64,000 nt of DNA from Bacillota bacterium (GTDB lineage: Bacteria > Bacillota > Dethiobacteria > DTU022): positions 86,829 to 150,828 of the forward strand of contig JAABTH010000003.1 of NCBI GenBank assembly GCA_011389985.1. The letters are read 5' to 3'. Position numbers and translations under genes: made by a program. Of the stretch, positions 27,851-29,382 are shown one piece after another. Each line of letters begins with the position of its first letter. The first letter of the stretch is position 1. Under the pieces are notes generated by a model. The model ran no database searches. It saw nothing but the letters and a program-made list of their open reading frames with translations, and was not told the origin of the DNA.

Positions 27851-27879
27851 TTGACAAATGGCATTTTTTCGACTATACT
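27851..27879 (+). promoter_or_regulatory. Sigma-A promoter (TTGACA-17-TATACT) driving the riboswitch leader
   Basis: TTGACA aatggcattttttcgac TATACT. Confidence 0.8.
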
Positions 27880-27892
27880 TATTATAGGTTCG

Positions 27893-28011
27893 AATAAGTG
27901 TAAGCCTGAACGATAACGGCAAACCTGCTGAAAAACAGGGGCGCAAAGCTAAAGGGTCTAAAGCTCCAAGCGAGCTATGACAGCCTGGCTACCGAAACGG
28001 GTTTTCTTATT
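27893..28011 (+). ncRNA. Cyclic di-GMP-I (GEMM-I) riboswitch aptamer, copy 1
   Basis: GGCAAACC...GAAA...GGCGCAAAGCUAAAGGGUCUAAAG...CUAUGACAGCCUGGCUACCGAAA core; P1 AAGCCUG/CGGGUUU extended by AAUAAG/CUUAUU; G at the position equivalent to Vc2 G20. Confidence 0.9.
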
Positions 28012-28088
28012 TATCTAAGTAATTAAAGTGGAGGAATGAACAAGCACCATTTTCGGTTGGTGAGAATAATCCAGCCGGACCAAATTTA

Positions 28089-28187
28089 ACCTGACCGACA
28101 AAGGCAAACCTGCTGAAAAGTAGGGACGCAAAGCTAAAGGGTCTAAAGCTCCGAGCGAGCTATGACAGCCTGGCTACCGAAACGGGT
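28089..28187 (+). ncRNA. Cyclic di-GMP-I (GEMM-I) riboswitch aptamer, copy 2
   Basis: Near-identical core to copy 1; P1 ACCUG/CGGGU; P1b CCUGCU-GAAA-AGUAGG with a GAAA tetraloop. Confidence 0.9.
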
Positions 28188-28208
28188 ATTCTTGTTTCTA
28201 CTTTGTCG

Positions 28209-28232
28209 GTCCCTCTGAAGGAGGGACTTTTT
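28209..28232 (+). terminator. Terminator / Shine-Dalgarno-sequestering hairpin (riboswitch expression platform)
   Basis: GTCCCTC-tgaag-GAGGGAC-TTTTT; 3' arm contains the GGAGGG SD of the ATG at 28234. Confidence 0.75.
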
Positions 28233-28233
28233 G

Positions 28234-29382
28234 ATGAAGAAAACAACATGGGTAAAAAGTTTAGCGGTAACAGTAGCGGTAACAGCAATAATGGGTTTAG
28301 CAGGTTTTTACTTCTTTGCCGAACCGAATGTGACTCCGTTAAATGCCGGCAGTGTGGAGGCTACCGGATATGACAGCGCGAGTGTAAGCTTTACCTCTAT
28401 AGTTGAAAGCATTCCCGAATTAAGAAACACTATTGCAGAAGAAACTGATCCTTCAGTGAAAAACACTATTGCAGAAGAGACTGATACTTCAGTGGATACC
28501 ACAGCAGCAACAACTGATACTTCAGTGGATAACATAGCAGCAACAACTGATAAGAATGAAGAAACTCCTGTTAGGGCAATTCCTGCAGCAGAAGCCAGTG
28601 AACCTGCCGAAGTTGAAGCGGTAAAAGCTACTGCAGTTGCAGTTGAAGAAAAAACTGAGGAGCCTGCAGCAGCCCCTGTGCCTGAGGAAGATACTGCTGT
28701 CACGACAAGCAGCCCGTCGGCAGTAAGCGTTACTCCGGTTACTTATTCCTGGGGTTCTGCCGGTAACTACACCTTCCTCATGGAAGTTAAAGTGACAAAT
28801 AAGGGTACAGAAACCTCTAAAGGGGTAGCAGTTTCCGTTCCTCTGCTCGAAAACAGTTCGCCTTACCAGACTACAACTTTAAAATCAGTCAACTACGATG
28901 TTATTTCCAATTCTGGTCGGGTCAGTACTTTTAACCTTGGTGATCTTGCGCCGGGTGAAAGTAAAACCATTGTAGTTGATTTTGCTATCAATGTTCGTAC
29001 CGTTTCGATTAACTCAACTAATGATACAGTTGAACAGGCGCGCAAAATTTACGAAAAATATGCCGGGTCGGGCAACTGTCGCGAACTGGCTTTAGGGTTT
29101 ATTAAAGAAGCACGTGCCCAGGGTATTAAGGCCCGTGAAGTTATTGGCTTTGCTCGCCCGCAGCGCAGTGCAATGACATCAGGTTCACTCCAGGGCGCCC
29201 GTCACAGCTGGGCTGAGTTTTATATAGATGGGCTTGGCTGGGTGCCTGTTGACCTGACGTTCCAATATTTCGGTTCATTTCCGCAAACCTCACATATCGT
29301 CGAGAGTTACAGCGACCAATCAATCAAAGTTAACTTTACGGGCGGAAGTCTTAGCGCCACATGGAGCAACGCTATACTTTAA
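28234..29382 (+). CDS. Secreted/anchored transglutaminase-like protein with Thr/Ala/Glu-rich linker
   Basis: Signal/TM N-terminus; TIAEETDxSV low-complexity repeats; Cys-His-Asp triad context NCRELALGFIKEA...ARHSWAEFY...GWVPVDLTF. Confidence 0.85.
   Translation: MKKTTWVKSLAVTVAVTAIMGLAGFYFFAEPNVTPLNAGSVEATGYDSASVSFTSIVESIPELRNTIAEETDPSVKNTIAEETDTSVDTTAATTDTSVDNIAATTDKNEETPVRAIPAAEASEPAEVEAVKATAVAVEEKTEEPAAAPVPEEDTAVTTSSPSAVSVTPVTYSWGSAGNYTFLMEVKVTNKGTETSKGVAVSVPLLENSSPYQTTTLKSVNYDVISNSGRVSTFNLGDLAPGESKTIVVDFAINVRTVSINSTNDTVEQARKIYEKYAGSGNCRELALGFIKEARAQGIKAREVIGFARPQRSAMTSGSLQGARHSWAEFYIDGLGWVPVDLTFQYFGSFPQTSHIVESYSDQSIKVNFTGGSLSATWSNAIL

Follow-up and report, generated by a model that had tools for sequence, protein, structure and literature searches.

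Tandem c-di-GMP-I riboswitch aptamers upstream of a predicted surface transglutaminase-like gene in a Bacillota bacterium

Described tandems and their likeness to the locus

Tandem c-di-GMP-I aptamers form the commonest class of riboswitch tandems, with 347 doublets and 12 triplets (PMC9481103), and tandem c-di-GMP-I units gave a more digital response (PMC4759541). According to a 2025 survey (PMC12452182), tandem c-di-GMP-I aptamers precede COG1305 transglutaminase-like genes in Bacillota, an association with a p-value of 1.08e-34 and 94% doublets. The window, i.e. the whole stretch of 64,000 nt analysed here, holds a locus of the same riboswitch class, doublet arrangement and gene family; the tandem and its gene association are already known in the literature. 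However, in what is available of that survey these tandems occupy a table row, whereas anatomy, platform and mechanism are described here for the window locus. As is probable for the window, the doublets and triplets of PMC9481103 are pseudo-cooperative tandems of one class; the table of that paper contains no bi-mechanism c-di-GMP-I entry, and its accessible part does not treat the platforms of single loci.

Three individual systems share parts of this arrangement. Bc3-5 of Bacillus thuringiensis (PMC4759541) resembles the window in its highly similar c-di-GMP-I copies within one leader and its surface protein genes, but there the copies number three, a separate terminator lies downstream of each, and experiments show ON switching. 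In the Cd1 OFF switch of Clostridioides difficile (PMC9262584), the ligand frees a terminator from an antiterminator, as is proposed for the window. Cd1, however, is a single aptamer whose antiterminator uses the aptamer-stabilising 3' strand (A), whereas in the window the 5' flank of the aptamer would be used. The HMP-PP (thiS) riboswitch (PMC6478431) shares the idea of a terminator-embedded aptamer with the proposal for copy 1, although its aptamer and ligand are unrelated to those of the window.

The aptamer pair and its downstream gene

A preliminary description had proposed tandem GEMM-I aptamers at this locus. A covariance search with RF01051 (c-di-GMP-I, GEMM-I) recovered both copies at full length (Table 1) and far above the gathering score of 35 bits; a chance origin of two such strong matches at tandem spacing is far beyond expectation. 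A single leader thereby holds a tandem of two complete aptamers of the same class, both on the + strand and downstream of a strong promoter-like site. The leader is about 345 nt long up to the ATG, and within the window no ORF of at least 60 aa lies on the + strand between the aptamers. A smaller ORF there (AUG 28036, 17 codons, after GGAGG) was rejected: its Shine-Dalgarno sequence is too near the start codon, and the relatives' linkers that were inspected showed nothing comparable.

Table 1. Position of the features of the tandem leader and its gene within the window
Feature	Position	Strand	Evidence or remark
Sigma-70-type promoter TTGACA-17-TATACT	27851-27879	+	11/12 consensus positions; consensus match only
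P1 5' strand of aptamer 1, AAGCCUG	27902-27908	+	Partner CGGGUUU 27998-28004; from sequence
c-di-GMP-I aptamer 1	27908-27996	+	RF01051, 79.2 bits, E 6.3e-14, model 1-87/87
U-rich run UUUUCUUAUUU right after aptamer 1 P1	28002-28012	+	Proposed aptamer-embedded terminator
Linker segment UUUCGGU	28051-28057	+	Free-energy folds of the window; possible ligand-free partner ACCGAAA 27991-27997
P1 5' strand of aptamer 2, ACCUG	28089-28093	+	Partner CGGGU 28183-28187; from sequence
c-di-GMP-I aptamer 2	28093-28181	+	RF01051, 83.4 bits, E 6e-15, model 1-87/87
Strand X, GACCGACAAAG, 5' flank of aptamer 2	28093-28103	+	Perfect complement of strand T
Alternative hairpin GAAACGGG/CUUGUUUC	28179-28198	+	Minimum free-energy fold of the window; would consume the aptamer 2 P1 3' strand
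Strand T, CUUUGUCGGUC	28201-28211	+	Full complement of X; overlaps the hairpin base
Hairpin GGUCCCUC-UGA-AGGAGGGACU	28208-28228	+	Terminator-like scan match; pattern kept in relatives
Transglutaminase-like gene, ATG start	28234-29382	+	PF01841 (Transglut_core), E 5.7e-14, residues 262-341 of the ORF from 28231

As had been noticed from the letters, the copies are nearly identical (82/89 positions alike, 7/89 different) and start 185 nt apart. The likeness extends beyond the aptamer 3' end for 16 nt (14 alike) and is then lost (2/24), while the 5' flanks agree at 11/25 nt. The earlier reading of P1b also holds: cmscan marks a single C.A mismatch in the CCUGCU/AACAGG of copy 1, and the CCUGCU/AGUAGG of copy 2 is paired throughout, including one G.U. 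Both copies have a G at the G20-equivalent position (GGCAAACC), which favours c-di-GMP and is not of the cGAMP type. By this criterion c-di-GMP is supported as the predicted ligand of both aptamers, in agreement with the earlier preference for it over cGAMP, and the source genome has 11 GGDEF matches, 10 of them above the cut-off. Outside the pair, the same genome has one more RF01051 match, a single GEMM-I (L046 1455-1545, G000:C31) followed by a terminator-like CGCCTGGGCGAACAGGCG hairpin and lacking strand T.

From its ATG, the downstream gene encodes a protein of 382 residues. What appears to be a membrane segment or signal at its N-terminus is followed by a stretch of low complexity and then by the Transglut_core domain. 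By eye, the superfamily's Cys (GNCRE), His (HSW) and Asp (VDL) are apparently there. The product is predicted to be a secreted or membrane-anchored transglutaminase-like protein; searches with it against solved structures and NCBIfam models gave no match.

Expression platforms of the two copies

An own expression platform is clear for copy 2, whereas copy 1 shows P1 and a U-run only. The pattern of strand T plus hairpin was found 32 times in 28 of the 71 genomes of the order, with no match in the 27 other genomes of the class or in the reversed control. X and T pair at a mean of 10.5 of 11 positions in second copies, against 8.5 in first copies at these loci, and nine X:T positions are paired in 92-100% of 37 sequences, with compensatory changes at two. 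In a register control (30 sequences), 91.8% of the cells were paired, compared to 23-47% when slid by 1-3 columns. In this set of sequences, two pairs changed on both sides, giving five double-changed cells, which 3 of 500 shuffles reach; the percentage paired and the number of pair types showed no clear excess over shuffles. The covariation is modest. Because GACCGAYAA also occurs in some T-less aptamers, the conservation of X has partly other causes. The conserved platform of the second aptamer is a new detail, through which this sensor probably turns the gene off. Neither the X:T platform nor the unequal labour of the two copies was met with in the open-access papers searched.

In the predicted fold of the window, X:T has a probability of 0.86, and the basal pairs of the hairpin rise from 0.49 when folding is free to 1.00 with X barred. 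The Shine-Dalgarno sequence lies in the 3' arm of this hairpin, followed by a U5 run (28228-28232), a G and the AUG. It is paired in both predicted states (unpaired 0.04 and 0.04), so that only the hairpin base changes. We infer the following order of events. Free of ligand, X would pair with T and thereby take up the basal pairs of the Shine-Dalgarno hairpin. With c-di-GMP bound, aptamer 2 and its P1 would form, holding X inside and releasing T; the full hairpin could then close beside the U-run and the start codon, so that transcription would end and the Shine-Dalgarno sequence would be buried. For copy 1, where the case is weaker, the ligand-stabilised P1 directly 5' of the U-rich run might itself act as the terminator. 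Taken as a whole, two independent c-di-GMP-I riboswitches, probably both OFF, would control the surface transglutaminase-like protein, a reading for which direction and mechanism come from predicted pairing and in which we have middling confidence. On this model c-di-GMP is predicted to repress the gene by both routes, and OFF switches in series would sharpen the response, as the literature expects of such tandems (PMC9481103, PMC4759541) and as the preliminary description had also proposed.

The proposal for copy 1 draws on the pilM GEMM aptamer, in which P1 was detected only with ligand (PMC9262584); since that P1 is ligand-dependent, a ligand-stabilised P1 with a U-run may itself be a terminator. 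Across 21 tandems the U-run after P1 averages 5.2 in first copies and 3.9 in second copies (Wilcoxon p 0.0007; the loci are related). In the window, P1 of aptamer 1 has 7 bp including two G.U, which is short for a terminator. The GACCGA flank is kept in just 5/21 first copies, and strand T was not found in the first copies' own linkers. For aptamer 1, a conserved antiterminator within the linker was rejected, as the complements found were mostly the second aptamer's own P1 strand, and the linker pairing UUUCGGU:ACCGAAA showed no conservation in relatives.

The same U-runs would also suit a bi-mechanism tandem, with aptamer 1 acting on transcription via P1 and the U-run, and aptamer 2 on translation via the Shine-Dalgarno hairpin. 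The hairpin holds the Shine-Dalgarno sequence near the start codon, yet several relatives (L034, L035, L037, L038, L040) lack the U-tract 3' of it, so one mechanism may not suit them all. In the window, however, the U5 run is there, and because the Shine-Dalgarno sequence stays paired in the folds with or without X:T, translational switching is not predicted; we regard the bi-mechanism tandem as the less likely reading here. Another possibility might be that c-di-GMP blocks termination at one or both copies, as it does in Bc3-5, the B. thuringiensis triplet of ON switches (PMC4759541), and highly homologous GEMM aptamers do exist as both ON and OFF switches (PMC9262584). Yet downstream of either copy no conserved terminator consuming the aptamer 3' strand was found, and X:T, the alternative helix that is conserved, would compete with the hairpin instead of building it, which makes ON switching unlikely. 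Cooperative binding of both aptamers through a shared platform, in the style of the glycine riboswitch, could be read from X:T being conserved in the second copy only, but it is very improbable given linkers that range from 38 to 119 nt and share no conserved sequence, nine orthologous leaders having a single aptamer with the same platform as the second copy, and the classing of c-di-GMP tandems as independent units in the survey (PMC12452182).

Two further elements lie near the second aptamer. The GAAAC/GUUUC complement of the alternative hairpin is present in many relatives, weakly above shuffled sequence. In leaders of family f5 (L024, L047, L049), an extra terminator-like CCCCGGCCTGGCCGGGG-ATTTTT stands between the aptamer and the T-hairpin; an aptamer strand of the GCCAGGC type is a possible partner for the GCCTGGC in it.

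Age and probable homogenisation of the pair

RF01051 matches occur in 57 of 60 related genomes, many as tandems. When orthologues were searched with the C-terminal 193 residues of the transglutaminase-like protein, 17 further genomes from two families, with G040 the one in another family, were found to have a GEMM-I pair before the orthologue, and nine a single aptamer. A locus of the MAG Syntrophomonadaceae bacterium CSSed165cm_165, with aptamer sequences equal to those of G030, is probably the same genome and was counted once. In view of this distribution, the earlier suggestion that the pair arose by recent duplication is rejected. Since pair and single arrangements are spread over orthologous loci, the pair is old, with the upstream copy repeatedly gained or lost. 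Remnants of degenerate first copies were sought in the nine leaders with a single aptamer; the only trace was a stray GCAAA in one of them, 285 nt upstream.

Several other elements were encountered in the related loci. One locus has two successive transglutaminase-like genes (L051 300-902, 1478-2668), the second preceded by a tandem GEMM-I pair, and in three genomes a cobalamin riboswitch lies 3' of the transglutaminase gene (L039 2747-2922, L044 2741-2916, L081 2221-2396). In a tandem GEMM-I upstream of a flagellar rod-like gene (L041 2752-2999), GGGATTTTTGTG comes after P1 in each copy and T is absent, and GEMM-I aptamers are found upstream of type IV pilus-like component genes (L050 62-152, 4005-4092). 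Near the G040 tandem, a match to PYLIS_3 (RF02510, pyrrolysine insertion sequence mttB) with 39.4 bits (L025 131-230, - strand) suggests possible pyrrolysine use in that genome.

The other half of the earlier suggestion, gene conversion, fares better, as the cores point towards later homogenisation. In the window the two cores are alike at 71/75 positions (95%), whereas each matches its counterpart in the congener G001 at 60/75 (80%). Core identity within a locus averages 0.87 (18 loci) versus 0.76 for first-first, second-second or across-copy comparisons between loci, with a permutation p of 0.0005, the smallest value that the shuffles used allowed, among related loci. Mutual best matches make up 8 of 21 tandem pairs. 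In G034 and G064 likeness goes by position (0.95 and 0.96 vs 0.88 within locus). Assembly collapse is an unlikely cause of the identity of the window copies, which differ at 7/89 positions and in both flanks; in G006 and G040 the cores are 100% identical, and a short-read assembly error is possible there. Homogenisation of the window cores after the split from G001 is supported by these comparisons, and gene conversion or re-duplication would both fit. No paper on gene conversion between tandem riboswitches was found in the open-access literature.

A lineage-specific design is a more tentative proposal. In it, the aptamer 5' flank would serve as antiterminator of a hairpin with a double role, ending transcription and blocking the ribosome site, P1 of the upstream copy would be a terminator, and repeated gene conversion would keep the cores alike while the flanks stay different.

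The window protein is predicted to be made at low c-di-GMP. A transglutaminase-like surface cysteine protease produced under such conditions would recall LapG, with which adhesin loss occurs at low c-di-GMP (PMC3032545). The likeness is an analogy, however: LapG belongs to a different family and its control is at the protein level. If the inferred fold is true, about 28 genomes would offer a ready series of single and double riboswitch versions before the same gene, suited to testing the contribution of the second copy to the c-di-GMP response, as well as a clear example of homogenised tandem riboswitches.
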